In this document: in pieces, positions 3,550 to 64,000 of the stretch
Position numbering within the stretch: position 1 is the first letter of the stretch
Layout: each line of letters begins with the position of its first letter
DNA from: Membranipora membranacea
Taxonomy: Eukaryota; Bryozoa; Gymnolaemata; Cheilostomatida; Membraniporidae
Direction: 5' to 3'
Assembly (NCBI GenBank): GCA_914767715.1
Contig: OU612066.1
Span: 9,365,001-9,429,000 of the forward strand
Length of the DNA stretch: 64,000 nucleotides
Notes under the pieces: model-generated
Seen by the model: only the letters and a program-made list of their open reading frames with translations
Database searches by the model: none
Told to the model about the DNA's origin: nothing
Position numbers and translations under genes: made by a program

Positions 3550-4177
3550 TCTTTGGTAAATCATCAATAATCTTATGGTTTCTATACTCAATAAAGACCA
3601 ACTGTTCTCAACAGCTTGTACATAGTTTTGCTTGTTGAAAATTTGTGCTAAAATGATAATGTGAATCATACAACATAATGCTTTGGTTGAATTTGTGTGG
3701 TGATGTATATGGATACAAAGCTCACACCATTGCAATGCAGAAAAAATGACATTGTACCGGAAGCTGAGCAGGGCAAAATCGTTTTCAAGTGGTATCTCGA
3801 AGGGCAGTATGTGAGCAGATTAAGCACCCTCCCAAAAGAGGTAAACTTGTGTGAGCAATGGTCAAATAGGAGACAGTCTCGTGATTTTCAGCTAAGGAAT
3901 TGTAACATGTCACATTTTGTGTTGGAACCAAAACTGAAAACTTTGAAAGTAAAAAACATCGTCGTTTTAACTTCCCAAGGTCAGGAAAGGGTAAAATAAA
4001 AACGGCATCTGTTCAATTGTTTTCTACTTATGCAATGCTGTAATTAAGTTTTGTTTTGGGGAGGTTTTCAAATCTGAGAAATATGAAACAATTGTACGGC
4101 CAACCAAAAAGGGGATTATTGATATTTTGATAATTTTAAGTTGGTTTCAAAATATGATATAACTTATTAGTAAGAGG

Positions 4178-4215
4178 CATAGACTTAATATACTAAGTAA
4201 TATATTAAGTCTATG
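4178..4215. mobile_element. Micro-palindromic element, 38 bp, with 8-bp TSD
   Basis: A perfect inverted repeat with 15-base arms (CATAGACTTAATATA and complement) and an 8-base loop. It is flanked on both sides by the identical octamer GTAAGAGG (4170-4177 and 4216-4223). The same arms occur at 30669-30701 with a different loop and different flanking octamer, so this is a recurrent insertion and not a chance hairpin. The 8-bp duplication and CA...TG ends fit a minimal hAT-type element. Confidence 0.75.
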
Positions 4216-4423
4216 GTAAGAGGTGAAAATTTGCTGTTGCTATATTTTCTGTTTTTGGATGTATTGATTATTATTCATATATATTGACAATCTGAAGGGG
4301 CATAAATTGGAAATCTGCCCACATTTCATTCAGAAAACTTTCAAGCCCAACCTGCCAACCTGGCATCTAAGCTTGCAGAGTTCTTTCAAGTCACAGAGTC
4401 AAAGCATAGCTGCGTTGATGTGT

Positions 4424-4437
4424 GTTGCCATGGTAAC
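4424..4437. promoter_or_regulatory. RFX X-box-like palindrome upstream of the Hox gene
   Basis: GTTGCCATGGTAAC is close to the ideal dimeric RFX site (GTTGCCATGGCAAC), with one change in the right half. It lies 264 bases before the Hox4-like ATG in a locally GC-richer stretch. RFX sites usually mark ciliary or RFX-controlled genes; use by this Hox gene is inference. Confidence 0.45.
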
Positions 4438-7700: not shown

Positions 7701-9305
7701 AACAGTAACAGATTTTCTAAGTTTCTAGATATCTGATCTCAATATTTGATCATGGCTGAAGCACTTCAGATAATCAGTGGCGTTAATTGGAAAGACCTGA
7801 CCTTGTAAGTCACAAACCTTGCCACAAAAAAACCTAAAATTTCATGGCTTTGTGGCGAAGGAGAATGGCAGGCTGAACATTCAGGCTTCCTCTTTTTTAA
7901 ATCCATGTAAATTGAAATCTTGTAACAATATGCAAATAATTATCCATGGACGTCTGCTATGCTTTGAAGTTTTATTCAATCAAAAATCAGAATTGTGATT
8001 CAATCCCGCCCGATACAAACCTGAAGCCGATACAAACCTGAAGCCGATACAAACCTGAAGCCGATGCAAACCTGAAGCCGATGCAAACCTGAAGCCGATA
8101 ACTGAATGGGAATTAATTGGCTGCAACCTCCAAAATTTTAATTCATGGATTTGATTGATTATCACCTTAGCACCGGTGAAGTGATTTTTAATTGACTGGA
8201 CTTTCATTGATAGTTTATGTTGGTTCTGTGATCTAATAGGTCTCATTTTTCATCCTCACAGCCGACCATCAATCTTTCATAGCAGTAATAATAGGAAGTT
8301 GATTGTGAGCGAACAGGTTAAACTCCTGCACAGACATGGTGATTAATCTTAATTCTAGTTTATTGGATAATACAGGATAAGCTCTGAATCCGTGGTCTTT
8401 ATATGCTCAAAGATTTACCTTAAGCTGATAAGATGTTAATCCAGCAGCCTAATATAGATCACAGTATGCATCGACTTGGGAAGACTTAGAAATAAATCAT
8501 GGGAATAGGCTGAGTTTATGTGAATAAGATCTGATCACCAAATGTGAATTGCGTCACATTTAGGTGTCAAGATCAATTTCTTATCACAATGTTTAAATTT
8601 TTACTGTTTCACTGGCTACATATTCAGCTGCAAGATAGTTAGAAGGGAAACGTGTCATATCAAAACAATACATACCATGAGTGGGGTGTCTGAAATGGAG
8701 ACGTCATCGTGTCAACATTTCTGCCAATTTTTTCTAGCCCATTTTATCCAAATTAACAAGCGGTTGACAGTCGGCTCAATCATTCTTATATTTATCTTAA
8801 TTCTGTACAAGATGTTTCAGTAAGATTTAGATTATTGCGGTCTTATCATCTGCCGTAGTTTCATTTTACAACTAGGGTATTTGTAGGCAAATTCTACTTA
8901 AATACCATCAAAAGCAAACAGCATCAAGAGTGTTTCCATATTCTATTTATGTTCCCACTCTCCTGTTTTATGCGTTCAATTGAATATTTGTCTTGTTTTT
9001 CAGCCACCACATTTGATGGAGATAATAAACGGACAAGGACAGCATACACACGGCAACAGGTGCTGGAGCTGGAGAAAGAATTCCACTATAACCGCTATCT
9101 GACCAGACGTAGGAGGATCGAAATAGCTCACACTCTGACCCTCAGTGAGCGACAAATAAAAATCTGGTTCCAGAATCGCAGAATGAAATGGAAGAAAGAT
9201 CACAAGATGTCCAGCTCTAAAGGCAGGTTACCAGAAATTAAAAGCCAGAGTTCCACAGGAACCGAGATGGACAATGAGGAATCTGATGGCGGCGATAGCC
9301 TCTAG
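4701..9305 (+). CDS. Hox4: Hox4/Deformed-like homeobox transcription factor
   Basis: Four coding exons, 4701-4882, 5477-5610, 7397-7525 and 9004-9305, join in phase (2, 1, 1) to 248 aa. The N-terminus starts [11 protein letters not shown] and is rich in Tyr, Pro, Ser and Thr. A YPWM hexapeptide lies at residues 139-142, just before the last intron. The homeodomain, about residues 156-215, carries [39 protein letters not shown] and [15 protein letters not shown], with Gln50 and Asn51. These residues are diagnostic of paralogy group 4 (vertebrate Hox4, fly Dfd). The C-terminal tail is short, acidic and Ser-rich, ending GGDSL. The protein should act in the nucleus as a DNA-binding axial patterning factor with PBC partners through YPWM. 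Most Hox genes have one intron; this one has two extra introns in the N-terminal part. A possible 38-nt cassette exon (6506-6543) would shift the frame. A minisatellite lies in the last intron. Confidence 0.93.
6506..6543 (+). other. Possible frame-shifting cassette exon in Hox4-like gene
   Basis: The 38-nt segment has a good acceptor (TTGCAG) and a plausible donor (GTAGGC), and would join in phase to the preceding exon, adding [13 protein letters not shown]. However, its length is not a multiple of three. Including it puts the next exon out of frame and meets a TGA before the homeobox. It is either not an exon or a regulated poison exon. Confidence 0.25.
8012..8100 (+). repeat. 17-bp minisatellite, about 5 copies
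   Basis: The unit GATACAAACCTGAAGCC is repeated head to tail five times (starts at 8012, 8029, 8046, 8063, 8080), followed by a partial unit. The last two full copies have GATG in place of GATA. It lies in the intron just before the homeobox exon and does not encode anything in the spliced gene. Confidence 0.9.
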
Positions 9306-12300
9306 TTTCCTAGCATTCATTTCAACATTTTTATCTGTGTTTATTATAAATATACACTCAAATCCGACGACTTAAAACGGCGCTCAACTCACAGTCCTCT
9401 TAACAAAATATTTATAGACTTCATATATACCGGTTACACTTTTGCTATTTTTAAGCCAGTTTTGCAAGCCTAAGGCTTCGAAATGATGCTCTTTACTCAG
9501 CATCAGGATCTCAAAATATTCCTCCTTCATGCGGATTAGCAAACACTCAACACTAAAACTGCTGATATTGCCAAAATTCATTCAACTAATAGAAGAAATC
9601 CTAATTTATTACCTTGCAAAATCTTCATCATGAATTTTACGCTATCTAGGTATCATTGTTCCAACATTCCAATATGACTCATAGATGATGAGGGAAATAA
9701 TACAGTATTGTTTTTTGGTCAGCTCTAAAGAGTATAACAAAGCATTTAAATGTTTATTTATTTAATACGTCATGATCTTACTGTAAATAATAATTCAGCC
9801 TTATTTAGCGAAGCCTTCACCTGTAAATACGTAATACATTTTTTATGTCAATATAAGAATAAATAAAACAGAAAGACACAAACTAAATACATACAAGAGA
9901 CTTTTCTAGCTCAAAGAATTTCAGACAAAGATATTTACGCTTGTCCGGATATGACAGTATCTTGAGTGATTTTTGAAAGGGTTGAAAAATGTCAGATTTC
10001 ACAGCCCACAGAATACTCTCTATGGCAACAAAAACAACAAACTGATCCGCTCGGATATATATATTTATCTTGACCCTCCTACGGCTGACCAAAAATAGGA
10101 AAATTGTCTTCTTTATTTCCCATTAAAGCAAAAGAATTTGGAATAATTATTTGTGAGGCTAATGCGGTCAAAATAGAAATGTACTTTTGAGATATGCATA
10201 AACAACTTCAACTTCTTGCACCGCTCAGGAACTATCCCGTAAACAGCAGTGCATATAATTAACTCGTATTCAAAGGGCCCAATAGTTATGTATGAGCCAT
10301 CCAGTATCCTTAGGCCCAGTTATCATCATACATAGAGGTATCAAGGTTCCACAGTTAAATGTGTGGGAAGGTACACCTGCTGTGTCAAATGCATTTTCTG
10401 ATAGATGAATCAAATACTTGTAAATAGGACAAAACTGCAAGGACATTCATATATCATATATCTACTACTTTTTTGGCATTGTAATAATTACCAAGGATGC
10501 TTTTCAAACTAAGCCTTGCATAGGGTATGGATGAAATCTGGATGTTTTCGTCATCACTTGGATGTCAAATGACCCAATCTTTTCAAAAAGTGGCGACAAA
10601 ATCATTTCTCTTTATGATGGAATTATTGAACAACGGATAAAAAAATGCTAATTGTTGTGCCATCATACATCATCAACAAGAATAGCCCCCCCCCCCCCCC
10701 CCAAGGTCATAATTTTGATCTCACTGGCCACGACATCACCGCACACAGCTTACCCAAGCCAGGAGAATTATTCATAACAATTACGTGTTGGTACCCGGCC
10801 ACACGCATCCCACTATAGACAGATTCCTTCAATTTGTATCGATTAAACTTCAAGGACAGGAGTAAAAATAATCAGTTTCCTAGTGTACTGCAGGTGCTTG
10901 TCTTTTTGGTTTGACGTAGGGGAGTTCGGCTTTTCTTAACTGATGTGAATTCTTAAAAACAGAAATGACAAGTGCAAGGTCACCATATAAGTTTAAAACA
11001 GCTCGAAATGTTATACAAGCTCGTAGGTTTTCAAAATTCTGACAAATTCTCTGAAATTTTAAGAATTTTTGATATTGAAGTTGCCCCTCAACCATAGGCT
11101 CCAAGTCTGCAGTGGAGGCAGACACTTCTATCCAGCCTCAAGTGATCTAGTAGTATAGTATGGATGATAGCTCATTTTTTTGTTGCCCATGCCTGAGGTC
11201 CATTATCTCCTCTGCTCTTCTGCTTCTACTTTCTGCAGGGGAGATAAACCTTGGGAAGACCCCATCAAGCTCAAAATTGAAATCATGTATGGTAGGTGTG
11301 GTGGTATTGCTATTCCAATGATACAAGAAAAGTACACATGTCATATCTGCTTCAAGTCAGACAATGCAGGGAGGCATGCTACAGCTTGGAAAAGTCAGCA
11401 TACCCTGAGTTCTCCTCATACAATCAAAACGCAGACCCAGATATTTTTACCAGTCAGGCGTTGAATCACAAATAAATATCACAGCAAAGATTTAAATACA
11501 CAGCTTTTTTATTGCCTGAACATCGAACAAAGCATTGGGTTCAATCATAAAATCAATTTGGTTTAATTATACTGGAAGAACAATCAAATTACCCCTCACA
11601 AGTGGTTTATGTAATGATATTGAATCAATGATTTTGATTGAGTAGTATGTAGGATTTAGCAAACAAATGGATTATTGTGTTCAAGTGGTCCAGATTGGTT
11701 TTAGCACCTATTCTTGAATTAACTCTATATTATTAGTATACCAAAACTCCGGCAGGCATGATTTTCCTGAGCAGCTTTTGTTCTTAGTCATTGAGTTTTG
11801 TGCTGATCGCCATGGAAACGAGAGACAATCAATCACGCTTAAACCACGTAAGCCTCTCACGGTGACAGACAGAGCTAATGGGAATGTAAACCGCAAAGTT
11901 AAAAATTCTCTCCCTCCGCTCATAGAGAGAGGTTTGCTTAATTACCATACTGCTAAGTCTGATTGATGGAGATTCAATTATTAGCTCTGAAACTGGGAAT
12001 GGTTGCCGCCTTATTCCTTCCTCAGGCGCTGAGCGTTTTATCCTCACTTCTCCTACCCAGCTCCAGACATTCAGTCTACCCTTGTGTTCAGTATGAGGGT
12101 AAAAACCAGGAGATGGGCTTCAAAGCACTTGTCAGCGCTTGTCAGCTAGACTTTCCTAACACAAAACTCAATTATCCACCTGTCCATCAAAACGAATATA
12201 AAGCCAGTTCGCTTTCGGACTTGCTCCTCGAGAATAATGGGGCTGTCAGGTGCTCGGTTTTTGAACAACTTTGATGGTTTTGCAATTTTTGCAAATCAAC

Positions 12301-26904: not shown

Positions 26905-29900
26905 TCAATCTCCGACACTGATTCCGAACTGGAAACCCGGATGCACCTGAAATATGACAACAGAAACGAGCTACATCAAACGATGCTATAATTCTACATA
27001 GCAAGTACATGACAGGTTGTGCATAGGAGATTTTATGCTGGCAAAGCTAGACTTGGTTTGTTGACATTGGAAAGGTCAGACATATAAAAGGCTAATAAAG
27101 CATGCTATGCATTAACCAATAATTAACAGTAATGTACATGTATTAATATAACTGCTGCTACAAGGTCATCGGGAATGTAAAATCCAATAATACCAAAGAT
27201 GGGTTTACGTAGCAGAGTCAAAATCCTGCTGTGATACTATTGATAGTACAATGATAAAATTAAAATACATTGACCCCCCCCCCCCCCCCGGGTCAGAGTC
27301 CCTCCAAACCAGAGAAAGAAAGCAACAAACTTGTCATGAGTCATGATATTGGTATATTCATCAGCCTTTAATAAACTTTAAAATATGGGGAACATGAGGG
27401 AAGAGAACTATTATCCTTAGGTCATATAACTGAAAGGTCAAACAGATGTTAGTTCAGTGCTAGTAAAATTCCAACATCATCCATATGCACTTCCAAGCTA
27501 CAAACTCCAGTGACTGAATGAATAGAGAACGTCTTAGTTTGGAATTAGATGTTCATAGAGTGATATTATTATGATACCAATACTACCTTATCCTGAGATT
27601 GATGCCAGGCTGGTATGCAGTAATTCAGTTCTAATTTAACTATTCCTAGAAAGTTTGTGACAAGTCCTACACCATATGTGAGCCGTGTAGTATCTCGGTG
27701 TAGTTTTACTCTCTCTGACATGGTAGATTCTGCAATTAAAACTTAAATCTGTAGCGTCCTTAAAATACTTAGTGTTTAGAAGAACAGTCTATTCATAATT
27801 CTGCTAAGAGCACACAACTCCAGTTCAATATTTTTCACATTGTATCAGTAGAAGGCTAAGGGTTCGCAGGTACTTTATGTATGTTAGTCCCACATTACAT
27901 AGATGGCTGAGACATGATCTGGGTTAGTCACTATCTCGGTGAACAAGATCTCAGAGCTCTAGGTTTTGTGGTATTGACCTTTGTGGTATGATGCGGGTCC
28001 CTACTTTCAGAGAATATAGACTTAAGATTAGTTGCTGTATAAATCATGCTATACAACATTATTTAAAGAAACAGAATTAAAATTCAGTAATGCATCATTA
28101 AAGCCATAGTGAAATTATCAGGCTTTTGGTATCATTCAAGTGTACTCTGCCTAATTTAGAATACTACACTAGTTTCGTAATCGGCATTTGGTCCAGTCTC
28201 AACTGATTTTCACCCAAAAACCTGGGAAGGTACTACAACTGTACCATTTCCCCTCTATACATGTTTATTGAAAATAGTACCTTTTCAGTAAATTCTTATC
28301 TCAAGTTTGAGTGGAAACTCATCATAACTGGGCCTTATACTTCATAATACCAACATCTCATTCTTTCACAATCACTTAAATCTATAGTAGCGCTTTTGGG
28401 ATTGTGATATTTGATTGGGTAATTAAACAGAATCACATGCCAGCAATCATATTTTTCAAAGATTTTGACCAACTGCAGGTGCACCATGATCTGAAATTTG
28501 GGTATTTCATACATATTTTTATGTTATAGAGCGATAAAGAGGGGACAACCTTAGTGTTTGAGAAAAGTTGAAGTGAATTGTCACTTTAGTAAAGCTAATG
28601 ATTTCAACTATGACCATGGGCTATGGCTATTTGAAAGGTTGCTATGGTGCTCTTAATGATACTGAGACCTTCAATACGACACCAATATGGGGAGGCGCTA
28701 CTATAGCTTAAAATAACACTGGCAATTCTGTATCCCTCCCAGAGGTGTTATGTAGTAGCCTTGTCACGTGACCGTTTTCTTGTTTTAAAACAAATGGCCA
28801 TGTGACAAGGTTAGTTATGTAGAAGGGGTGGGGTATGTAGAGTCCCTGCTCACCTGAGGACCATTGCTGAGCATTACCAGCGTTAACGAATAGCTGAGTT
28901 CTGAATCTGTCTAGTATTCCTCCTCTTACACCCGGTAAGGGTAAGAGTAAGTGTGCTCCAGCCCGCCAGTAGAAATCAGATCCTAGTGCATTCTCTACAA
29001 TACGTTAGGTACTCGAATATATAAAGCATGACTGCCTCCTACCCAAGCATGAGTCTATTATAGCCTGATATACATTCCATCAGAGGAGCCATGATGGGTC
29101 TGGAACACAACGCTTTATGAAAGATTTCATGTCCCTGGGATCAAGACTTAAACTAAGACTACAGTAATGAGTTAGTTACTAGAAAGGTAGCGATGAGATC
29201 AAGTTACATTTTAAGTCACTGCCATACCACTGGCATACCGGCGCAAAGGAGGTGCAACTCCAAATGCATTCAATTCTTGATCTAGGAGGTATGGATTGAT
29301 AGTGTACATGAAGAACTTGAGAAAGGGTCATGAAGGACACTGATCAATACCAACAGTCTGATAAGACAATATGGTTCCATCACTGATACAGAAAACTAGG
29401 ATAACATGGGGATCGTACCTTGTTGTCTTGGTCCTATTCCTTTATACTCAAAGCCTCGTAATGACTGAGGTCCTCCCAGATAGAATTTATCCATGATTGA
29501 TAGCGGCTGTGGTTTGGATAGACTAAAGAGATTCAGCGGCTGGACATGACCCACGCTGGCACCGACCTGTACCACCTGTAATTCAGAAATATAGTTTAAA
29601 AATAGGTGAATTGGATAGAATTTATGTTCAAACACTTGTAGAATCTGTCTGATTCCTTCTTCTGTGCAACTCGATAGATTACAAATCACTAGAGGACAAA
29701 CAAGAGTCTCAATCCAGCATCTGAATTAGTATGTTACTAGTCTATCATTTATTGATGGCAAATTGTCATGTGATGACTGTATTTGGATTACTGTACAGGT
29801 GGAAAAGATTCATCGCGATTTGCTGAGTTAGCTGCTAATAAGATGGAAATGCAGCGATTCAGTCCAGACAACTTTGTGCAGTATGATGAGTTAAGGAGAG

Positions 29901-32900
29901 CACATCCGTCCCGTCTTTATTCACTGCCTGTTAAGTCAGGTATAGTCCCCTACACCTACACCTATGTCTAATACATACCACTCTGTCTATGAGTTGTTGA
30001 TTGAGTTGTACAGACAATTCTTTAGAGTAGAAGTGAGCGTTGCCTCCTAATCCAGCGAGTTCCTGAGTAAGTTTGACTAAGTGTCCTTTAGTCGGTAATA
30101 ACTGATCGTCTCGGCTATCTTGTCTTAGTTGATACTATAAAAAGGGGACAAAACACCATTGTGTAACCATATCATACATTGAAGCTGGAGTACTGATATC
30201 CAGTTATCATTTAAATCATAATACAATTGGATAAGAAAGGAATGAGAGAGTATGGAAGGAGATATGTATGTGTCCGCAGAGAATCAGAGAGTGACTGCAA
30301 CTGTTTCTGAATTATGAGCATTTAATTACCGGCTATCAAAAGCGGTCATTATTTTTTGGAACACTGGAAAAAGTTAATTTACTAGTTGATAAAAAAGGAA
30401 TTATTTAATGTTTTGAGAGGTCTTATTAATATGATATTTCATAAATGACAAGAAATTTTAGCTCACAGTGCACTCTACTCCCATATCATCATAGAGGTTA
30501 AACAGCTGCTTGCATTCAACAATGAACAGAATAACAATAATCTTCAAAAAACTTAAAAGTTATGCTTGCAAGGCATAGTACAACTGTAAATGAGAGTTGT
30601 TTCCTCTCTGAACTATAACTTCAGGGAGAGGGCAACTCTAAGTTATAACGCTATTTGCCTTCTGAGACCATAGACTTAATATAAAATATATTAAGTCTAT
30701 GTCCGAGACCAATACATGGTGACAAAGGAGCTCTTCATATAAAATTATACGATGACATTTCAAAAATATGGACATACTTATAAGCTTAGCTTGGTTTTAG
30801 ATAACGACTTCATTGTCACCGGAATTAGCTGAGAAGGTTGTAGCAAGGAGTATTCCTCCTTGGCTGTATTATGAAAACAACCTTACCTGTACACTAGATT
30901 TTAGTGAGTGACCTGCCTGCTCCCTGACAGCGACTGCTGTTTTATCATTCAACGCCGAAAGTTGTCTCCATACACCTCGCCAGGATAACATGTGATTAAA
31001 AGTGTCGGTGGGTACCTAGAGGAAAATGAAAATTGTGAATAAGATTGGGGGGGGGGGGAATAGAGGAAATATGAAACAGAATAGGCGCGTATATAGATTA
31101 ATCCAGTCTAAATCTTCATGGCGGAGAGAATTATCCCCGTTAGAGTACAGGTGCCGGGACCCATGGTATTCAAGCCGCGCTCTATACCCTTGCCCGCCGA
31201 AATTCCGGCTACTCCTTATATTGAAGAGGCAGAGGGGATCTTGTTACTTCATGTGGGATGTGTAAACGTAGATACATTGGACATAGTACAGTATAATCAG
31301 TTGAGATAATTAAGTAGAGATGTCTCAGCTTAGTTATGTGTTGAACTTACCGTAAGACCGAGGGAAACTCCAGAGCTCCTCTCTTTGTAACCACTGAGAG
31401 CCACCTGCGCTCCATCATCAAATACTGTAGATGTGATTCTAAAACAGCAGATACGAAATGATTACATTCAGAGTCAACTTCAATGATTGGTCAACAACTA
31501 CGTTGGCCAAAAATATTGATGGTAAATGCATCGTATTTTCAAACATTAAAGTGGTCCAGAAAACCTGCGCTATGCAACTCGATCATAGTATAGTTCCCAG
31601 GCAGCGCTCTTACATATTCATTTTAATATTCCAGTCGATAGGGATATGAATATTTCAAGAAAGGGAATCACGAAAAGAATACATCTCCTGAAACATACCA
31701 TGTCACTCTTTCCCTGCATTGTGCACGATGTCAAAATTGTCTCCTACATCATGAACAAATACTGTTGTGAGTTGAAAGTTGAGAAGCTAGATACTATCAC
31801 CTCTATAGCTTTATAGTTCTAATTACGCACACAGGTTCATGATATCTGAACACCTCACTCTGGGTGGTTACTCACGTTGATCCATATCCAGGCCTTAATG
31901 GTTTGTGAAAGATAAGTTCTCTGCCACCATCAGTTATACCCTTAGTAAATACACAGGACGCCTGCTCACCTCGTCCTAATAAATTCAGGTAACGTCCAGT
32001 CAGTTTCTGAAATATAAAGGGTAACACCTCAATATTGCTTTGCATAGTCTGACAACATAAAAGAGATGAGAGCTGTATTTTTATGTAAACTGGCCAATTA
32101 AATGTTTCCAAGTTGACCCCTGCATCTTGATCTGTATCAAATAAGGAACATATCTGGGAACCCATTATGTGAATGGCTTGAGAAAAAAGGTCAATTGCTG
32201 AAACTCTGCCTGATTTGCTTGTAATGGCATATGATTATTAGCCACAGCCCGTCTCATCTCATGGTTTGGCAATGGTTGATGGTGGAAGGCAACCTCCAAC
32301 AACCTGAAAGATTTTGAACACTTAAAATAGAAAAAAAATCAACACAAAGTAAGTTCACATGCTAACAAGTCTATTATAATGACTACTTAAAATACCTAGC
32401 CCTGACTAATCACATTCATCTTTGGGGTATGAATGTACTCTAAATATTCTCAGTGACAACTTGATTAATATGCATCTCGTTTTAGTTAGAGTAAACAATG
32501 GAGATGGCGATAAATTGATTACCATGGACCAGGGACTTCCCATATGTTTTAAGTCTGCAATTAGTGATGAGAACAGGGGTGGATACAAAATGTTGAGGTG
32601 TGGATCCATTGCTTAGAATTCTTTACTGCTATTAGAACCATCACCTCGCTGATGATTTGACAGCGTATCTTGTACCACTAAAAACTTATTTACATCAATT
32701 TTCGGTACAAGTGAAGATTTAAAACACGAAAGGAATGAATAAGTGAATATACAACATTTCGATCATGTCTACGCTCCTGATGAAGCAACATTACTGCAAA
32801 CTACGATAACAACAGAGCCGAACGACTTAGTCGACACTATTAGTTTTGAAGTGTAGATAAAAAGGCTTATCAAAACATCTTAAGAACAAAGTGAATGAAT

Positions 32901-35900
32901 ATATCTGTCTACTACTAGCTTGTAAGCACAAATATTCATTTATCAGTGGCTGTAAAGGTACCAATCTATGGATCAACATGATACTACAGGTGAGCCAGGA
33001 AACTTAGAAATCAGGTGTTCTTTGGTTTCAATATCCTTAGAATCACACTTATCAAGAGAAAGCATGCCAAAACATGGAAAACATAAGCACCTGAAGCAAA
33101 GGGTGATGGGTTATACACGTTATTGGTGCCCTACTAAAACATGTTGAATATTTTTCAGTGTTGGAAATTTGTACCTTTTTATATTTCAATGTTTAGGGTT
33201 CCTCCTCTGCATGGTGTCAGAGGAGAGAGTGAGAGATGTTACCCAGTGGCTTGGAAGCGGGAGCATCAGTGAACTGGAAGGTTTCCTCAGCACAGCTGGA
33301 GAACATTCTCAAATAGTCAGTCATTGGGTGGACTTACCACAAGCCAATAATGGACCTGTGATGGCTTGTTTACTTGAGCCAGTATATCACAGAGTGATAG
33401 GGCTTCCTGTTATTTCAGCTTCATGTATCAGGGGTTCAAGGTGCGGACTGGTGGCACCTTTGGAGATATTACCAGCTCAGCATGCTGCTCTCAGCAAACC
33501 TGTTAGGATTACTGGTGTCAAAAACTTTTCCATCAGAAGGGACGAGCATCGCAAAGCGAAAGTCTTTGTGGACTCCTCAGCAAGAGTGAATGCGATATCT
33601 ACCATATTGGACAACAAGAGGAACACTACTAGCGCTGCAGTTTTCTCCAGCCAGCAGGATGCTGACTCAGTACAGGGTTGGCAGTCAGTCCATATCAGTA
33701 CACTGCCAGATACAAAGTCAATTGCAGGATACATTCTAAACAAAATCAACAACACCAGTGACAGGACCAAGTTTGTTGATGCTCTGGGAAGAGAAGGTGT
33801 AGACTGGAGTGATCACGCCAAGGAGATGGGATCCCTGTCTGCATCAAGTGGCATTCAACCTGATGAAACTGACTCTGAAACCGAACATGAGTATGAAGAC
33901 TGGGTCATTTTAAAATCCTTTGCCGTAAGCAATCCTGGATCTACTATGGAAGCTCTGCAGAGGAGATTTGATACTGAACCAACTGACTGGAAAACATTTG
34001 TGTGCTGTATGACGGGAGGACAGGCCTCACTTCATATATCCATAGCTAAAGATATCCGAGCACTAGTGTTTCTTATCACACTGGAAGGTGCCCAAGACAG
34101 GAGCGAATGTGAATTTCAGCTGCCTTCTTTGCATGAAGCGGCAATGAATGATGACAGCAGTCTACTTGAGTGGTTGCTACAAACTAGTTCTGCACAGGTA
34201 GACAAAATACTTCAAGAAACTGATGAGGAAGGATTCACGGTATTGCAAGCGGCTTGCAGAGTAGGCAGCATTGATGCTGTACAGCTACTGACTTCTGGGA
34301 AGTTAATGGAGAGCACAGTACTTACAGAGCTGGTCACTGAAACTACAAGCCGCGGCGATACAGCCCTACATGTCAGCTTGAAAAGTGATTACCCCCTGAT
34401 TCTCCACGAACTGCTGAAGTCTGCGGACAGAAAGGAGAGGTCCAGACTGATGTCTCTCAAAGACCACGATGGTAAAACATGTGAGGAGGTTACAAGATCA
34501 GATCTTGTGAAGTATAAACTAGCAGCAGCAGTTCTGAAATGTGAGTTATCTTATACTCACAGCAGTTGTATAGATATGATGTTATGCCATTTTGGGAATC
34601 GTCTTATCAAAACACAAGAGCAACAGTAATATATACTAACCAAAGATATAAAAACTGTTTTTATATCTATGATACTAACCCAGAATTTCAAAGCTCTAAA
34701 ATGGTAGAAGCAGCAGCTTGAATATTTTGATTGTTTAACTACAATGATTCAACTACAAACTTTTTCACTTTTCTATTGCAGACCATAGTTGGATAAGTAG
34801 TTTGATGTTTGAAGAGTTCTTCACAAACTATGACTACAGCCTATTGGGCATCGATGTCAGCGAGAAAATGTTGCGCTCCAGACAGTTAAGATCTCAAGAC
34901 CATGATATGATGCAGCATTCACAGCAGAGACTCAGTGAAGAAGGTCATTTGGAAAGAGGCGAAATACATTTCCTAAACTATGACAGTATGGTTTTTCTGA
35001 AAAGTTACGATCTACAAAAAAAGATTGGCAACCAAGCCAAATGTAAGGAGTTTATAGAAAAAGCAGTCGACTACACAAATAAAGTGTTGACTATAATTGA
35101 TGATAGGAGTATCCATGCATTGTCAAACAAGGCCTTATGTCTGATTCGTCAGGATGTTCACACAGATAAGAGGCTAGAAACACTGGCTCACAGGATATTG
35201 GAGATGCAGGTGATGAAAGGAAAACACCACTATATATCAGTGGTTGATTATGCCTTTGCCTACGCAGAGACACTCATCACAGATGAAGCCAGGAGAAGAA
35301 GCAGTGCTATACTCAGAGAAGCCCTAGCAGAGATCCAGGCAATGCCAGACGCAAAATATCTCAGCGCATACTGTGTTTATTTCCATGCAAAGATCCTTAT
35401 TCGTAGAGCACAAGCACAAGCACAGGAGAATAGATCAAGGGTCCCACTGCAAGAGCTAGTTAGGGATGCCTTGGAGTGCCTGATAACTCTAGCCAAACAA
35501 GACATTCCAGAATTCAACTGTGATCTTTGGATATGGCTGGCAGAATTGCAGAATGTACGAGTTAAGCAAAAAGTAGGGCCTGACTTTATGGCACAGTGTA
35601 TAGCCCAATACCAGAGAGAGGTCGGTGTGGATGAGGACGTCAATGTGGATGTAGCATTCTGTATTAACCAGGGTGAGCAGGTGGTGGGCGCCAGAGGCAA
35701 TGAGCCTCGATTCATCAGAAGAATAGGGAAACTTTACCTTCAGCTAGCCTATGACACCAACAACAAAGAGGAAAAGACCAGATTCTACACAAAAGCAGCC
35801 CAGGTTTCAGATCAGCTTGTTTTCAATGTTCCGAGGCCAATATTCATTGCCGTCACAACAACAACTAAAGCGAGAATCGGCATCTGGGCTATAAGGTATT

Positions 35901-39013: not shown

Positions 39014-39048
39014 CAGGGAGGGTGGGATATCCTCTCCCACCCTCCCTG
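39014..39048. mobile_element. Micro-palindromic element, 35 bp (CAGGG ends), with TSD
   Basis: Perfect inverted repeat, 14-base arms CAGGGAGGGTGGGA around 7 bases. Flanks are GTACATC on both sides (39007-39013 and 39049-39055); if the terminal G is counted as flank, the duplication is the octamer GGTACATC. CAGGG termini with an 8-bp duplication are the classic hAT signature. A similar CAGGGAGGGTGGG stretch without the second arm occurs at about 57220. Confidence 0.75.
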
Positions 39049-39354: not shown

Positions 39355-39390
39355 CAATGAACTCCCTCTTCAGGAAGAGGGAGTTTATTG
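39355..39390. mobile_element. Micro-palindromic element, 36 bp, with 7-bp TSD
   Basis: Inverted repeat with 17-base arms (CAATGAACTCCCTCTTC, one mismatch) around AG. It is flanked by identical heptamers AGCCAAC (39348-39354 and 39391-39397). It lies 306 bases from the preceding element. The CAATGAACT end is shared with the element at 57841. Confidence 0.7.
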
Positions 39391-54312: not shown

Positions 54313-55804
54313 TTATCCGACAATTGGAGGGCATGGTCTGCCTACTGCAGTGTTTTTTTCCTTATAGCAGCATAATCTCTTTTCCACAGGGTAAAGACCC
54401 TCCAATCCCTTTCTAGTCGGCTTTCCACAGTCTGATACACTCTGTAGTCTGACTACTAAATTTGACTTGGATTTAGATTTTGCCAGCCTTGTACACACAT
54501 AGTCACCTGAAAGGTTATAATCAACATCAGTTTTATTGTATGTTTCTCACATTATCGGCCTATGAAGCAGAAAGTTCACCGGCCACCTCACACGTATTCA
54601 TTCTTCTATATGGGACAAAGTGATACAAGGGTGGCGTGAGAAAAAAAGAAACTTGTCCATCCCACAACTAGGGTGGGTGATAGTAAGGTGGTATAAGCAG
54701 GTACCTGCTCTGCATCGTTATGTGGATCACTTACCTACAGACCGACCTCCCAGAAGTTTTGACTGATATCCAGAATAAAGGTAATTCTTTCCTGAAAATA
54801 AAAACATGCAGTCATCACAACTTGTCTTTTCTTTGCACATGAGAAGACAATCCTTTATTGGAATACAAAACAATGTCACATTGGAAGACCAAAATTGGCA
54901 ACCTCTACATGACTGATGCTTTGCTTCATTATTGCTCAGAATCTGCTTGCAGAAAAAAAAGGGCATATCTTGTACCAGCTTGGGAAACAGCACCACTGAC
55001 TAACCTATAGCTTCACAATGCTCTACACATCTCTCTTTCATAGAAGCACATGAAGGTCTTTTCGAAGTGTAAACTAATTGGACATTATCTGCGACTGAAT
55101 TGCCGAGAATATCCTGCAACCTGACTTCAAATAACTTCTTGGTCTGTCCTTGAAGGACCATCAGTTTACAGCTGCAACTGGAATAAGCAGATAAATATAA
55201 AAATAACGGCCACATATGCGCAACATATCAGTGCAAGGAGTTGTATTTATTGATCTATCTCAACCATAGGTTTATTATTGAGTCTATGATCTCAACTCAG
55301 TGAATTTTCCTATTTATATGCTGTGGAAAATTACATTTTATCAACTTACGGTTTAAGGGTTGAGCCAGAAGGTAGTGTATTGACACCTGGTGACTGGTCC
55401 GGTCTGAGAGACTTGATAATATCGTCTGTAACAAGAAGCAGGGTGGGGTGGGTTCCTAATGCTGACTCCGTTACATGAAAGAGATATGAGCACCACATGA
55501 TTCTGAGGCCCGTTTAAGAAGCTGGAACAGCCATACCTTAATTACCAACTGCAAACTATGGAATTGAAATTGGTCACATAATTTTTCATAACATATGAAG
55601 CTGTATACAATGAGGCATCAACTGGTGCACAGATATTTTTATTCGAATCAAACACACAGGTTCATGCTCACCCACAACTTGTTGCAAGTCACGATCGATG
55701 CCAGTTTTATTGTTTAGCAGACCAAGATTGAGATGATCCCCAACAATGGCACCAAGCGCAGAAGTTGGTAAAAATACCAAATATACAATAGAAAGAACAA
55801 GCAT
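54313..55804 (-). CDS. Secreted cysteine-rich protein, about 210 aa, unknown
   Basis: Five small minus-strand exons, 55804-55672, 55425-55350, 55177-55005, 54791-54735 and 54506-54313, join in phase (1, 2, 1, 1) to 210 aa. The N-terminus MLVLSIVYLVFLPTSALG is a clear signal peptide. After a polar stretch come CSCKLMVLQGQTKK, a KRPSCASMKERCVEHCEA cluster, YVCTRLAK, VSDCGKPTRK and LCCYKE, ending GRPCPPIVG. There is no membrane segment or GPI-type tail, so it should be secreted and disulfide-rich. The C.C - GQ.KK - C/C/C - CC - PCP order faintly recalls the invertebrate follicle cell protein 3C-1 family, but from memory only. The small exons with consistent phases make the gene itself credible. 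Convergent with IFT57. Confidence 0.7.
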
Positions 55805-57415: not shown

Positions 57416-60400
57416 ATGGCAGCCCCCATGAAGAACTTGTGTTTGAAGGTCTCTGCACAAGCTTTTGGGATTTCCCGGAGTTTATGCACCTCCCTTCGTG
57501 CAAAGAATGGTAAGAGTGATAATGGATTGACCACCAACAATTTTTTTGTCCTGTTTTATAATTCTTAAGTCCCTAGTTTTCCACATCCAATCATGAATCA
57601 GTCAACACACTTTTCACATTTATGATTATATTATTTTATTATTATTAATAAATAATTATCATCAACATCATTTATCATCATTCATTACTCATCTATCATT
57701 CTTTGGCTTGCTTGTATGTATAAAATGAACTCACCTCGTAGAATATAGAACACTCAAAATCACCTAACGGTGCAAACAGGGAGTGCCCCTTTTGTCAGTG
57801 TTTAGTCAGTCAGTGTAATCAGCAGTCAGTGTAATTTCAGCAATGAACTAAACCTTAGGTTTAGTTCATTGATTTCAGAGTGTGGCAGCGATAGCTGCTT
57901 ATTGTCGAGTGTTATTTGACCCCAGCCTTAGATCCCTTACACTACGCGGAAGGAAGCTGTTGTAATACGTCTGACTCGAGGCATATATTGAGGTTGGTTC
58001 CCCTCTGTTAGCAGCTCGTGTAATCATAGTTGTTTGGCTCCTACTGTTAACCAGCTCATCATATGCTGAGGCAAGGGTCTGGTGTCTGGTTTCATCTGAG
58101 AGTATTCTCATCAGTAAGGACAGCCTGTGTGATTTTCGCTTATCTTTTAGCGGTTTTAGTTCAAGTTGCGCTCGCCCTTCAGTTACTCCGCGTCTACCTT
58201 TGATGTTTTTGATAAAGCGCACTGCTTGGGATTGCACTGTTCTATGGCGTCACTGGTAGCATTGTCAGATGGGTCCCAAAGGGTATCACCATACTCAAGG
58301 ATTGGCCGACAGAGACTGGTATATGCAAGCAACTTTCCTCTCTCGGACGCTTCATGTAGAGAGTATTTTATACAGCCGAGAATTTTCAATGCGCTCTTTA
58401 TTTTGAAATACTATAAATGTAGTTTATGAGATTTGTGGGAAATTTGCCTACTATAGAGGGTTTCCTTGTGCCAACCTTAATGTAAGTAAATTATGGCCGT
58501 TTTCTAAGCCAATGATTAGGCCTAATGTAATCAGGGAGACTTATCCCTGCTGTTGTAAGTAACCAAGGAGTAGTCCTTGATTGTAGCTGTTGCATGCACT
58601 GGGCTTGCTATCAGGATGTCTCAGCCATCTGACTACGGTTGTGTTGTTACTAGTCGAGTAGAACAGGCGCTACTATTAGTGGGCCCCCCCCCCTCCTACT
58701 TATAGTATAGATTATAGATGACCATTTCTTAGCTTATATGCTTGAAGGCTTATAGATAGATGCAAGTAAAGATATAGATTTATAGATTTCTAAAGTGCTG
58801 TCAGTGCTGTGCTCTCTTTGTGTGTGTATGGTCGTTGTGTGGCAAAGCAGAGCAGAGCAAACGGAGGGTTGTATCTGATATGATACATCATTAAGGTAAG
58901 TACAATAGGTTGTTAATTTATAGGATTTTATGGCATTCATTAGTCCAAAAGCCACATGCCATCGCAGCAGATTGGGATTCTTAATTTATAGATATTATAG
59001 ACAGTCCTGTGTGGGGGGAGCCCCATTAGTCAAGTGCAATAGTTGCCACCCCAGTATCTATTGCCTATAGATCTAAACATAAACCCAGACAGGACACTAT
59101 CTATATGGAGCATTAGCATTGAGGCGATTAGGTATTTGATTGTGGGTATTACGACATTGAAGTGTGTTGTAGCATTTGTAGGCCCACCAGGCTGTTCTAT
59201 TGATGTATCAATCAATTTCAGATCACAGCAAATTGTCGCGAACACCTTGATATTAATTGTCACCAAATTGTACCGAATTGCACCTGCACCGTGTGACATA
59301 GAGTGGTACTCAGGGCAGGGAGTTTGTCCGCTGAGATCTCCTGATTTCTGGGTCAACCAACCTGTCATGTATGCCAACAATTAATATTTGTACCACGTGG
59401 TTCCAAGATACCTAATGCTATTTGGTCACCATGACTGGTAATTCTGTACATGGGCAAGGGTGTCAGAAATTACAAAAATGTACCAAATTTTATTTTGGTC
59501 ACCCTGACTGGCCACCCTGGATGGCAAAATTCAAACCACTAATTCAAAGCAGACAGACAGTAGAAAACTTGGGTGGCAACAAATTGGTGGAGGACAGAAA
59601 AATAGCAACTACGAAAAAAAAAAATATCAGGTTGTTCTGTAAGGCTGTATCTAGGAAATGATGCAAGCAGCTTTAAAGATTGAGCAAAAACTTTCGTTAC
59701 ATAAACTCGTAGCTATTTGGTTTCGATTACTCCTCCATCCCCACAAAACAGCCCAGGGCTGCTGTGAAAAATGGTGGGTAAAAATATGGAATTTAAGTTT
59801 ATTTTTAATGGTTGTGCATCCAATAAGATGATGCTCCATGTAAACTCGAAATCTGATCAAAATTAAACGAGTTATCAACGCAAAACCTGGACTGTGGACT
59901 GAAATTCAATGATAACATCGTTGGCGTTACACGATCCAATTTTATAGCGTCACCAACAATTAAGTGCCTCATCCTAGCCGTATATAGTGTCCTGTCTGTG
60001 TTTATTAAGAAGTCCATGAGTATTGCAAAGTCCTCGGTTTGAGGATGACCTCCTGTTTTGCCTGTTGCAACTCACTCTCCCTGTCTGACCCAAAAACTAG
60101 CACCAAGTCTGGCTGCCAAATTGTTATCGCCAGTTCAGCTCATGCTACCTAACACAAATAACTAAAGTCTTATTTTTCTTGCAAAAGCCTAACACACTTG
60201 TACAGACTGCAGATGTGGTGCAAAAACAGAGTCTGAATTTACAATAAAAGTACATAGTCTTTTAGCAATCAACTCCCTCTCCCAAAGAAGGAGTTGTTTA
60301 CTTGCATTGTTAATTGACTACAATATTGAGCTTGGTGTTTTTAGACTGTACCTCCCATTTGGTACATAGACTGGTAGCCTTTAAACTGTAGAAGATTCTT

Positions 60401-63400
60401 CCCATTTGCCAAGGTGATTGCATTCCCATAGTTGATAGGGCGACCCCCTTGTATAAGGAGTTTTTGGCCTGACAAACTCTCGGCTCGGTCTCCCCTCCTG
60501 TATAGGCCTTTATCATATCTTTAGACGCAGTGATATGATTCTGGCTCCTTTCTGCCTTGCTTATGGTTCTGATAACTCTGATTACAGAGAGATGTTGTTT
60601 AAGTTGTTAAGTTAACTTATATCAATGATGCAGACCATTTGATCTCTAAAAAGAGAGGGGGGAGGGAGAAACTGTTGAAATTATTACTCTGGTTTGGTCA
60701 GTTAAAGTGATTGTGAACGCATCAGGTTCTTGGTATCATTGTCGGTTCTCAGAAACTGCTATAGGGGTTATTAACAAAATATAGCCTGGTTTCAATTCAT
60801 TTTCACTCAAAATTGAGATGTGATGGTACTAGAAAGGTACTATATTGATGATAGTACCTTCCAATCTCAATTATGAGTGAAAGTCAGTTGAAACTGGGCC
60901 ACTTGCTTTTATCTAAATTTTCTAAACCTTACAGCAGTTTTCTAAATTAGACTGAGGATTAATACAAAAAACCTGATTCCTTCACAATCACTTTAATATC
61001 ACCGAGTTATTTTGTGATTATCAGGAGTTGCTGCCGCTGCAGCCGTTCAGGATGAGCGCGCACCTTATCGCTTATACGGAGGGCTGATATTAGAAAGGAG
61101 GCCCGTGGTGACCGCTGAACTCAGTGACATGGAGCAGAAATATCACCAACTACAATCCACTGTAGAACTGGAACTGAGTCAGCTGTCTCACCATGAGATG
61201 AGGCTTAGAGAAGATCAGTAAGTTATATAGAAGGTAGAGAGAATGGTACAGGTCATATATTAAAATGGAAAATGTATTCCGAGATATTATAGACAAGGAT
61301 ATATATACAATGGGCGATACTGAGACTTGTGCAATCAGTCATGCAAGCTCTCCCAGTGGAACTAAGACACACGACTCCTAGCGCACCAATTACCCAGCAG
61401 TGAATAACAAGCGCGCTAACCGAAAATTCCATCTCACTGATTCAATTTCCTGGTGATAGGTGCTGTAAGAGTAATGAGTTTGAGACCAGCTTGGGAGCTT
61501 TCGTGAGTGATTGTCCCAGCCTCAAGTACCCTCTGTGAATGTAATGTTTTTTTATTTGTGATCTTTATTCAATTGAAACGATGTACAAATTGGCAAATGG
61601 TCAGAAATTTGATAGTACAAGAGTTGTAAAGTCGTCTACAGTTATTGACTAGAATATGGTCACAGTTATTGACTAGAATATGGTCACAGTTATTGACTAG
61701 AATCTGGTCAATCAGACTTGTTTTTGTTTTTCCAAATCTTGTGGGTGACTTAATGATGTTGAAAAATGCATTTTTGTTCAAAATATCAGAATAATTTAGG
61801 GTGAAGGCGTCAGGGCAATTTTGTGTATTTAAATCAATGTTGAGGTCTCCTACAACAAGCGAGTTTGAGGGAAGTGAGGGCAGGCACTCAGTCAGGTCCC
61901 TGAGGAAAGCAGGCAACGCACCTGAGGGAGCACGGTAGACAGCAAGCAGAGTACAAAGGTCGCGCCTGGCATCACCAACACGAATGAGAAGTGACTCCCA
62001 GCCCTCCAGCCGTACAGTCTCTGCTCTAGCCTCATACTTATCATTGACATATACTGCTACTCCTCCACCATTACCACTATCTCTAGAAGCAGAAAACAAG
62101 TTATAACCAGCAATGGTAAAACTTCCTAAAAAACTGTCCCGCTGAAACCATGTCTCAGATATAACTATGGATGAAAATTCAACATTAATTTCTGATAAAA
62201 ATAACTCAAATTGAGACATTTTGTTTTGCAATACCCTGGGCATTCACATGTAAAACAGAAAAATTGTTCGTTGAAAAATTATGTGTATTGACATCTTTTG
62301 GAGCTAGGTTGGCAGCATGAGAGACGAATAAATCGTCGGTGATTTCTGGTCTGTCGTCCATTCACAGAATATCGGTCCATGTTCAAATACTGCTCGTAGT
62401 AGAGTGTTGTATGACTGAGACCAATGTGCAACTAGGATAGAGATTGAAAGATTGTGTCATCAGTGACCTTGACCATGTCAGACTCCTTGGTTTTGCGCAT
62501 GAAGATCTGGCCGTGGTGGGTCCAGACATACTGGTAGTTGAGATCTTTTTTGCACTGCCTAGCCTTGAAGAATAGAGTGTTAGCAGCTTTTGTCAGGGAT
62601 TCGTTGATGTATATTTTGTTGTCACCCGAAAGGCCATGTTTCTGCACCGTTATCTTGTTTTTGCCTAGTAGTTTTCTGCAGTTGTAGAATTCGTCTCGTC
62701 TGACCAGTGAGCTAAATCTGACGACAATGGTGGTTGATGGGGATTGATCAGAGTTCTTCAGTCTAAACACAGTCTCCAGGTCTGACTTGTTGATTTGTGA
62801 GCAGGATATCTGACTGGCCAACTTAGAAATGATGTATGTGAGATCCTCATTATGAGTTTAAGGTATTCCACAGATCCTCAGTGTTTTCATCGATTTATCG
62901 CTTTGGAGTTGTCTGACCCTGTCATTATCAGCAGCAAATCTAACTCATCCATCCAGCCTTTAATATCCTTGATCTCATCACCACAAAAGGTCAGTGCTTG
63001 TTCATAGTCTGATTGCTTTGACTAGATTGACGAGAGCCTGGTGGTACTTCCGGTTTGTGCAGCTTCTAAATCTGATTGTTTCATTTCAATAGCTGTGATC
63101 CTGTTGGTATTTGGACAATGTTAGAATTGAGCATATCAATCTGTTTCTTCATATATCTCCGACTGGCGGTCACATTCTCTAGAAGCTGAGTAAGAGTCAC
63201 CTCCGACTTAGATGAAAGTATATGATTGTCTATCTTACTAATAAGGTCTTTTGCGGTATGATCTTCACTTTAGGCGTTCAGAATGATTTGGAATTGCAAT
63301 CACAAGTAAGTATACATGTATTTATATAATTGTCTTGATTTACAGAAAAATCGCTAAAATGAGATTACAAGAGAATTTCGATGAGTCAAAGATTGCTGCT

Positions 63401-64000
63401 GGTTCGCTGACAGCTCAGGATATGGAGGACAGCTGGGTAGCTGAGAGCGCTGCCTTCACACCTGCTGATAGAGTTACTGGTATGTCTGAGTAATCATTTC
63501 AATATCATTGATCTAACCAAGGAGTTAGAGACTCTAACTCCTTGATCTAACGTAGTATTGTAATCGATCTAAAGATAGATATGTGTGGTCTTTAGGTGAA
63601 GTGACAACAAGAAAATTGACATTTTCCTCACATATTATGGGCATTGTGAGTTGTTTTCTAACCAACAGAAGGAATAAAACTGGTAAATTAACTCAAAAAG
63701 CAGTAGATGATAGCCTTGCAGTGAGATCTAATAGAGAGTTATGTAGGTGTGTGGTAACCAATAGTTGTGAACTGACAACCTTTAGGTGGCAAAACTCAGA
63801 GTCTGATAGTAAAACCTTCCCATTTTTCTAACGTCTAAGCTGCGGTACATAATGATTGATGTAAACTGCTGTTGTCAAACTTCCAATAATCGTATTCATA
63901 CTTTTGCTTCAGACGCAGTTCAAGAATTTAATTCCAACCTGCTTTTCAATTAGACAACATCATGTACACCTTGGTAATCCTGGTATTACAGACCAACATA
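57416..64000 (+). CDS. MRPL46: MRPL46, mitochondrial large-subunit ribosomal protein (incomplete at right edge)
   Basis: Three exons are visible: 57416-57509, 61025-61217 and 63346-63479, with phases 1, 2 and 1 matching. Exon 1 encodes MAAPMKNLCLKVSAQAFGIS and more, a basic, Arg/Ser/Ala-rich mitochondrial presequence. Exon 2 carries PYRLYGGLILERRPVVTAEL, matching the conserved start of mature mL46 (LLGALCLQRPPVV in human), followed by a helical ELSQLSHHEMRLRED region. Exon 3 continues KIAKMRLQENFDESK and TAQDMEDSWVAES, matching the LAQDLEDMWE block. The Nudix-like second half must lie beyond the window; AG acceptors near 63595 and 63914 give no convincing homologous exon. The protein is part of the 39S subunit of the mitoribosome. 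Intron 1 (3.5 kb) and intron 2 (2.1 kb) are loaded with LINE, MITE and inverted-repeat DNA, all outside the exons. Confidence 0.85.
57841..57871. mobile_element. Micro-palindromic element, 31 bp, with 7-bp TSD
   Basis: A perfect inverted repeat with 14-base arms (CAATGAACTAAACC) around TTA, flanked by identical heptamers ATTTCAG (57834-57840 and 57872-57878). The first nine bases match the start of the element at 39355. It lies in MRPL46 intron 1, about 30 bases from the 3' end of a LINE fragment. Confidence 0.75.
57899..58430 (-). mobile_element. 5'-truncated LINE, C-terminal end of reverse transcriptase ORF
   Basis: Minus-strand frames encode LLAYTSLCRPILEYGDTLWD, then, after a frame change near 58230, QSQAVRFIKNIKGRRGVTEG and LKDKRKSHRLSLLMRILSDE. 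This is the conserved end of non-LTR retrotransposon ORF2 downstream of the polymerase domain (CR1/L2/RTE-like clades). The polymerase core is missing, as expected for a 5'-truncated insertion, and the frameshift shows it is dead. It lies antisense in MRPL46 intron 1. Confidence 0.75.
59070..60017. repeat. Diverged inverted-repeat pair, about 0.95 kb apart
   Basis: Bases about 59083-59230 on the plus strand and about 59880-60010 on the minus strand share CAGACAGGACACTAT, then a series of matching blocks ending near AATTTCAG. In plus-strand order they form an inverted pair around about 650 bases that contain no recognisable gene. It could be one old foldback element or two copies of a dispersed repeat in opposite orientation. 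Confidence 0.5.
60702..60996. mobile_element. TTAA-flanked MITE, copy 2 (295 bp)
   Basis: Ends TTAAAGTGATTGTGAACGCA and CCTTCACAATCACTTTAA are inverted repeats extending, with changes, through about 40 bases including ATCAGGTT / AACCTGAT. An inner inverted pair (CCTGGTTTCAA... against TTGAAACTGGG, with GGTACTA / TAGTACC near the centre) is also present. The structure matches copy 1 at 28098-28379. It lies in MRPL46 intron 1, 28 bases before exon 2. Confidence 0.75.
61569..62243 (-). mobile_element. LINE endonuclease fragment (ORF2 N-terminus)
   Basis: A 224-aa open stretch encodes an apurinic/apyrimidinic-type endonuclease of a non-LTR retrotransposon. SSIVISETWFQRDSF carries the catalytic SETW motif, GNGGGVAVYVND follows, and NSLVVGDLNIDL is the GDxN motif, with SLIDQILVN further on. 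The reading frame breaks at the right-hand end of the domain, where a 24-base unit is tandemly triplicated (61638-61709), and no reverse transcriptase follows. The piece lies antisense in MRPL46 intron 2, directly after an ORF1 fragment of the same strand. Confidence 0.8.
61638..61709 (+). repeat. 24-bp tandem triplication inside a LINE fragment
   Basis: The unit starting ACAGTTATTGACTAGAAT occurs three times at 61638, 61662 and 61686, the last with one change. On the coding strand of the LINE it repeats the peptide NNCDHILV. It is a local slippage event in the dead element. Confidence 0.9.
62432..62821 (-). mobile_element. LINE ORF1 fragment with FP-type domain
   Basis: A 129-aa frame with VFRLKNSDQSPSTTIVVRFS, RRDEFYNCRKLLGK, KIYINESLTKAANTLFFKAR and YQYVWTHHGQIFMRK. 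This is the C-terminal RNA-binding-like (baculovirus FP-type) domain found in ORF1 proteins of many invertebrate LINEs. The upstream part (about 62830-63280, minus) is broken by stops but still resembles the Gln/Leu-rich coiled coil that normally precedes it. With the endonuclease piece downstream it forms one decayed LINE copy. Confidence 0.75.
63518..63544. mobile_element. Micro-palindromic element, 27 bp, with 7-8 bp TSD
   Basis: A perfect inverted repeat with 13-base arms (CAAGGAGTTAGAG) around one base. Flanks are ATCTAAC on both sides (63511-63517 and 63545-63551); sharing the terminal G gives the octamer GATCTAAC. The smallest of the set. It lies 38 bases past the donor of MRPL46 exon 3. 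Confidence 0.75.

Follow-up and report, generated by a model that had tools for sequence, protein, structure and literature searches.

A 64,000-nucleotide stretch of the genome of the bryozoan Membranipora membranacea (GenBank assembly GCA_914767715.1, contig OU612066.1, positions 9,365,001 to 9,429,000, forward strand; hereafter the window) contains nine very short inserts (24–58 bases), each located between two copies of a short duplication of host DNA. Most of them consist of little beyond two mirror-image transposon ends. Eight of the nine form a main class of 24–38 bp with ends CANNGA...TCNNTG and a duplication of 7 or 8 bp, and these are probably (at roughly 60%) non-autonomous insertions that consist of ends only and were made by transposases of the hAT type (Ac/Hermes-like). 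All insert counts given below refer to this single window, in which the main class comprises eight elements of about five families.

Organization of the Inserts

A first-pass annotation had described eight palindromes with flanking direct repeats in the window. All eight were found again at the same positions together with their repeats, and seven of them indeed start with CA and end with TG. The repeat length of 7–8 bp proposed there holds for seven; the element at 28756, which is 58 bp long, has a repeat of 9 bp. A ninth insert, absent from that annotation, was located at 55265–55288 through a search for the end CATAGACTTAAT with one mismatch allowed; it is 24 bp long and flanked by a perfect 8-bp repeat. 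Seven of the eight main-class elements consist of two ends of 13–17 bp and a linker of 1–8 nucleotides. The inserts, to which no strand is assigned, are as follows:

4178..4215: 38-bp palindrome of the CATAG family; perfect 15-bp arms, 8-nucleotide linker; 8-bp duplication GTAAGAGG at 4170–4177 and 4216–4223
30669..30701: 33-bp palindrome; 15-bp arms identical to those of 4178, 3-nucleotide linker AAA; flanking 8-bp duplication TCTGAGAC/TCCGAGAC with one mismatch
34641..34671: 31-bp palindrome CAAAGATATAAAAAC-T-GTTTTTATATCTATG, its arms differing at one position; 8-bp duplication ATACTAAC; intronic
39014..39048: 35-bp GC-rich palindrome; 14-bp arms CAGGGAGGGTGGGA and TCCCACCCTCCCTG, 7-nucleotide linker; 7-bp duplication GTACATC
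39355..39390: 36-bp palindrome CAATGAACTCCCTCTTC-AG-GAAGAGGGAGTTTATTG; one mismatch between the arms; 7-bp duplication AGCCAAC
55265..55288: 24-bp element CATAGGTTTATTATTGAGTCTATG; no stable hairpin; 8-bp duplication ATCTCAAC
57841..57871: 31-bp palindrome CAATGAACTAAACCT-T-AGGTTTAGTTCATTG; first 9 bp common to 39355; 7-bp duplication ATTTCAG
63518..63544: 27-bp palindrome CAAGGAGTTAGAG-A-CTCTAACTCCTTG; 7-bp duplication ATCTAAC
28756..28813: 58-bp imperfect palindrome TAGCCTTGTCAC..GTGACAAGGTTA; 9-bp duplication GTTATGTAG; different class

With its length of 58 bp, its 9-bp duplication, and its TAGCC ends, 28756 is outside the main class. The element at 55265 is lopsided: at its right end it agrees with the CATAG family, and at its left end in CATAG only. 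When folded as single strands, the seven CA...TG palindromes gave z values of −5.7 to −9.7 and 28756 gave −5.0, while 55265 was unstable (−0.3). Longer repeats can also be drawn at 39014 (GGTACATC) and 63518 (TTGATCTAAC), because the repeat continues into the closing TG of each element (TTG at 63518); the 7-bp reading at these two sites depends on a boundary set at CA/TG. The elements at 39014–39048 and 39355–39390, which have different end types, lie 306 bp apart.

Flanking Duplications in Comparison with Controls

Among the palindromes with an arm score of at least 10, 8 of 13 lie between direct repeats that are 7 bp or longer (seven main-class elements and 28756; boundary slide of at most 4). 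The element at 30669, whose own repeat is mismatched once, was counted through a shifted 7-mer, and the strict count is 7 of 13. Repeats of this length flank none of the 39 window palindromes with scores of 8–9 and 356 of 39,000 random intervals matched in length. The same palindrome finder was applied to 12 Markov-simulated windows, where none of 24 palindromes had such a repeat (binomial value for the window count, 6e-14). The proposal of independent insertions with target-site duplications in the first-pass annotation is strongly supported.

Natural DNA gave the same picture: in 378,585 bases from 41 viral contigs, none of 61 palindromes had a flanking repeat of at least 7 bp, although these contigs were selected for holding a CAATGAACT palindrome and are therefore not a random sample, and the early stop of the palindrome finder was slightly changed for this control. 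Of the 41 viral palindromes with CAATGAACT ends, 40 have repeats shorter than 5 bp and one has a repeat of 5 bp, so that none reaches 7 bp with fixed boundaries. The CATAG palindrome had no match in the viral contigs. A stricter anchored scan of the window returned six candidates, namely five of the reported elements and an AT-rich stretch at 9702–9784; 40 simulated windows yielded 0.5 candidates on average and two at most. A scan that required G5 and an anchor of 7 bp recovered three of the eight class elements. The duplications are explained much better by staggered insertion of the transposase type than by anything else considered.

End Motif, Target Preference, and Enzyme Assignment

Since the main class was picked by its CA...TG ends, CA at positions 1–2 (A2 in 16/16 ends) reflects selection. 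When the 16 ends of the eight elements were aligned, conservation was also seen at G5 (15/16), A6 (15/16), T9 (13/16), and A10 (12/16), whereas positions 3, 4, and 7 vary. CANNGA is present at both ends in six of the eight duplication-bearing palindromes versus none of 44 others; counting palindromes with the motif at either end or both, the figures are seven of eight versus 2 of 44. The eight in this test include 28756, which is without the motif, and exclude 55265. Inverted ends of hAT elements carry A2 and G5, and the ends described here agree with this rule (G5 in 15/16, A2 by selection). CANNGA also agrees with the ends of Ac, hobo, and Hermes.

The ends are divided into about five types. 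The first, CATAGACT, occurs in 4178, 30669, and one end of 55265; the others are CAAAG/CATAGATATAAAAAC (34641), CAATGAACT (39355 and 57841), CAAGGAGTTAGAG (63518), and CAGGGAGGGTGGGA (39014). The elements at 39355 and 57841 have CAATGAACT in common and diverge thereafter. Elements with CATAG or CAAAG ends have 8-bp duplications (four elements, one with a mismatch), and those with CAATG, CAAGG, or CAGGG ends have 7-bp duplications as drawn (four elements, 39014 and 63518 being drawable longer). A division of four and four by end type has a probability of 1 in 70, but it was seen post hoc and is boundary-dependent at two sites. This split suggests, as a lead only, two enzymes, one for each of these end groups.

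The duplications themselves are also biased. When each duplication is taken from its two sides, 12 of the 16 half-sites have T at position 2 (permutation value, 0.0003), and 11 of the 16 start with RT, a count that none of 20,000 permutations reached and that compares with a window frequency of 0.148. A duplication of 8 bp is the rule for hAT elements (PMC3517528, PMC10368747). The hAT transposase Hermes produces 8-bp duplications with the target preference nTnnnnAn (PMC10368747), and Buster-type elements prefer nnnTAnnn (PMC3517528). The main-class duplications show the Hermes-type preference, with T2 in 12 of 16 half-sites. We infer a hAT transposase as the agent, and hAT is the best enzyme assignment. 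The fit to hAT elements that the first-pass annotation had suggested is supported by the CANNGA ends and the RT...AY target, two tests that the annotation had not made, and does not apply to 28756.

Several points weigh against this assignment. The 16 ends are not independent, as they come from eight elements in about five families, and the target counts shift with the choice of boundary at 39014 and 63518. Four of the eight duplications are 7 bp as drawn (strictly so at 39355 and 57841), whereas 8 bp is the rule, the wider hAT range being 5–8 bp. The 64-kb window showed neither a transposase gene nor a parent element nor an empty site. A difficult point is size: hAT elements are reported to need about 100–200 bp of each end, subterminal repeats included, a figure obtained with Tol2, Tag1, Ac, and Hermes (PMC10368747). 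The whole elements described here are 24–38 bp and should therefore not move as such. Because the requirement was determined on those four elements, it says more about whether the unit can move than about its origin.

Alternative Explanations for the Structure

Short hairpins do arise by chance: about two palindromes with a score of at least 10 were found per simulated window (24 in 12); the flanking repeats, however, occur at none of those 24 and at none of the 61 viral palindromes. A sequencing artefact such as tagmentation would face the further difficulty that the arms vary among sites and do not appear to resemble library adaptors, and chance and artefact together are scarcely credible as explanations. 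Repair of broken DNA, through snap-back or polymerase-theta-type templated insertions, can be considered because the inserts are palindromic and have short direct repeats at their flanks, and the arm of 57841 has a 9-nucleotide match in its own flank that was equalled by only 2 of 83 random stretches. In the other eight of the nine inserts, the arms match the flanks (±300 bp) no better than random stretches do, which speaks against repair; nor would repair be expected to give a common end motif at unrelated sites or a repeat length of 7–8 bp. The repair mechanism, which the first-pass annotation had offered as an alternative, thus finds little support and is very unlikely.

A transposase of the P superfamily (P, 1360, or Galileo) could have made the same structure in place of a hAT enzyme. 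Galileo produces 7- or 8-bp duplications with the consensus GTATTAC (PMC4168063), and both a mixture of 7 and 8 bp and a GT...AC tendency are present here, as in Galileo (PMC4168063). A length of 7 or 8 bp fits every one of the eight main-class duplications, and GTACATC, AGCCAAC, ATTTCAG, and ATCTAAC match GTATTAC mostly at T2, A6, and C7 (n = 4). However, a hAT enzyme would give T2 and A6 just as readily, and the central positions of the Galileo consensus are not reproduced. The conserved G5A6 of the ends, moreover, fits hAT ends (Ac, hobo, Hermes) but not the P end, CATGATG. A P-superfamily origin is quite improbable.

Size and Possible Routes of Origin

Longer relatives of the inserts were sought as CA...TG elements between 150 bp and 12 kb long, having terminal repeats matching in at least 9 of 12 positions and duplications of 7–9 bp, other end pairs serving as controls. 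No element with an exact 8-bp duplication was found in the window; there were 4 with a 7-bp duplication versus 0–5 for the control end pairs, and 16 with an 8-bp duplication and one mismatch allowed versus 0–34. The suggestion of a distinct minimal class in the first-pass annotation fits this absence of longer CA...TG relatives above the controls, within the limits of one 64-kb window. A candidate parent end at 57218 (CAGGGAGGGTGG) proved to be a G-rich low-complexity stretch, and candidates at 16835, 23864, and 60266 had no partner end with a duplication on inspection by eye. No empty site turned up in the window, as the joined flanks of the inserts matched only themselves.

Under the hAT assignment, the inserts would be formed by a transposon end of 13–17 bp (CANNGA...) joined head-on to an inverted near-copy via 1–8 nucleotides in seven of the eight cases, with the lopsided 55265 as the eighth. 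They would be inserted into RT...AY targets by a 7- or 8-bp staggered cut, the filling of which would leave the flanking duplication. Three routes could lead to this structure: (a) a short unit that is itself mobile, (b) two tips inserted and then joined, and (c) collapse in place. The identical 15-bp arms of 4178 and 30669 with different linkers (CTAAGTAA and AAA) suggest separate joining and favor routes (b) and (c), as does the lopsided form of 55265. That long relatives are at the control level although eight short ones are present favors routes (a) and (b). Given a hAT origin, there is a slightly better than even chance that the inserts were already short on entry and did not shrink later.

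Collapse in place would mean that longer hAT elements or miniature inverted-repeat transposable elements (MITEs) were inserted and then stripped of everything between their terminal repeats, perhaps in a failed excision with the transposase shielding both tips, so that the palindromes are scars. Such a history would remove the size paradox; the unlike linkers between the same arms in 4178 and 30669 look as if each had been joined on its own, the divergence of 39355 and 57841 after CAATGAACT is compatible with it, and 55265 fits uneven deletion. Against it, no intermediate or long CA...TG element exceeds the control level in 64 kb in comparison with eight short ones, and in seven of eight cases the loss would have had to leave no more than 1–8 nucleotides of interior. 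Collapse is possible but doubtful. Route (b) can be put in a stronger form, in which the inserts are end-joints formed during insertion, no element ever existed as a unit, and the insertion is of a new kind. A hAT-type transposase would synapse two separate fragments, each bearing one 13–17-bp tip, concerted insertion of both tips would give the 7–8-bp duplication, and the cell would join the inner ends through a few random nucleotides. Near-equal arms, linkers of 1–8 nucleotides, a lack of longer forms, and mixed end types would follow from this, and no 30-bp duplex would have to be bent between two active sites. This proposal is speculative and rather unlikely.

If pieces of 24–38 bp, of which this 64-kb window has eight, did enter as such, the transposase may recognize little beyond the six terminal bases, or else short transposon ends can be inserted and joined by a route that we did not find described for hAT. 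They would then rank with the smallest mobile inserts of nuclear DNA and supply introns with short hairpins. Repeat finders have probably missed them on account of their size.

Comparison with Known Elements

Galileo copies are long and have long inverted repeats, and CANNGA is not the P end. Galileo resembles the window inserts in its 7- or 8-bp duplications and palindromic GT...AC target (PMC4168063) and differs in preferring GTATTAC (PMC4168063). Mar, a hAT MITE of Drosophila willistoni, is 610 bp long with 11-bp ends and duplications of the Buster type, nnnTAnnn (PMC3517528). Like the window inserts, it is noncoding, has short inverted ends starting with CA, makes 8-bp duplications, and shows a target bias (PMC3517528). 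The window inserts, in contrast, are 24–38 bp with almost no interior, half of them have 7-bp duplications as drawn, and their target is the Hermes-like RT...AY instead of nnnTAnnn (PMC3517528). A MITE family comprises many copies with a common interior; in the 64 kb, three elements have the CATAGACT end (one of them at a single end) and two have CAATGAACT, but a linker is never common to two elements of one end type.

Palindromic MITE-like elements of Anopheles gambiae are 430–1678 nucleotides long with inverted repeats of 18–204 nucleotides (PMC3212995); some consist of palindromic repeats only, as the window inserts do, but they are far longer (PMC3212995). Closer in size are mitochondrial elements: GC42, a palindromic GC cluster of yeast, has 42 nucleotides and is flanked by AG (PMC4478555), the most abundant yeast GC clusters being flanked by AG or ACT (PMC4478555), and repetitive hairpin-forming elements of sponges have arms of 15 and 18 bp (PMC2800124). 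GC42 and the sponge hairpins are likewise mostly hairpin and present at many sites (PMC4478555, PMC2800124). However, they reside in organelle DNA, and hAT-type ends or targets and 7–8-bp duplications are not described in the available portions of these sources (PMC4478555, PMC2800124). Among the matches listed from the open-licence literature, there was no report of nuclear hAT-like elements of 24–38 bp.

Genomic Surroundings

By its gene content, the window is bilaterian nuclear DNA. Three genes were recognized by Pfam domains:

8859–9305 (+): Hox4/5-like homeobox exon (Pfam homeodomain)
18678–19382: seipin exon (Pfam scan)
52350–52688 and 53693–54028: IFT57 exons (Pfam scan)

For the homeobox exon, the best match by E-value is a protein named Hox-A5 of hamster (76% over 53%). 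Many other listed matches are named vertebrate Hox4, and the closest by identity (84–92% over most of the exon, the highest being 91–92%) are unnamed proteins. The Pfam scan of 16 open reading frames (ORFs) gave no second homeodomain. For the seipin exon there are three protein matches, the window's own among them, none of which is named. TIR-domain and ankyrin exons are also present according to the Pfam scan. An ankyrin ORF and further ORFs at 33148–36681 (+) look like one large gene; for the ORF or exon at 34748–35995, seven relatives were found in protein databases, none with a name.

The first-pass annotation had placed all its palindromes in introns or intergenic DNA. This holds for 34641, which lies inside a GT..AG intron at 34541–34781 (read by eye), and in the Pfam scan, which covered 16 of the 25 ORFs, no matching ORF contained any of the nine inserts; the statement is borne out in part. 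The element at 55265 is located about 1.2 kb past the last IFT57 exon seen.

Other repetitive sequences were also observed. The segments 61569–62243 (−) and 62432–62857 (−) have Pfam endonuclease and Baculo_FP_2nd matches, and 57899–58249 (−) reads by eye as the end of a reverse transcriptase, although it has no Pfam match; the three are apparently pieces of a non-long-terminal-repeat retrotransposon. The palindrome at 57841 lies 28 bp beyond the 57899–58249 piece and may be nested in the tail of the retrotransposon. An inverted repeat at 60784–60899 (48-nucleotide arms, 81% complementary, 20-nucleotide gap) is perhaps an old transposon, and perfect 17-bp inverted arms surround 53 nucleotides at 2282–2368; a flanking duplication was seen at neither. 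Upstream of the homeobox exon, a 17-bp unit is repeated in tandem at 8010–8100 (5.4 copies, 97% match). Finally, 56338–56405 (−) has a transfer RNA (tRNA)-like match of 29.5 bits versus an Rfam cut-off of 29 and could be a tRNA-derived short interspersed element.

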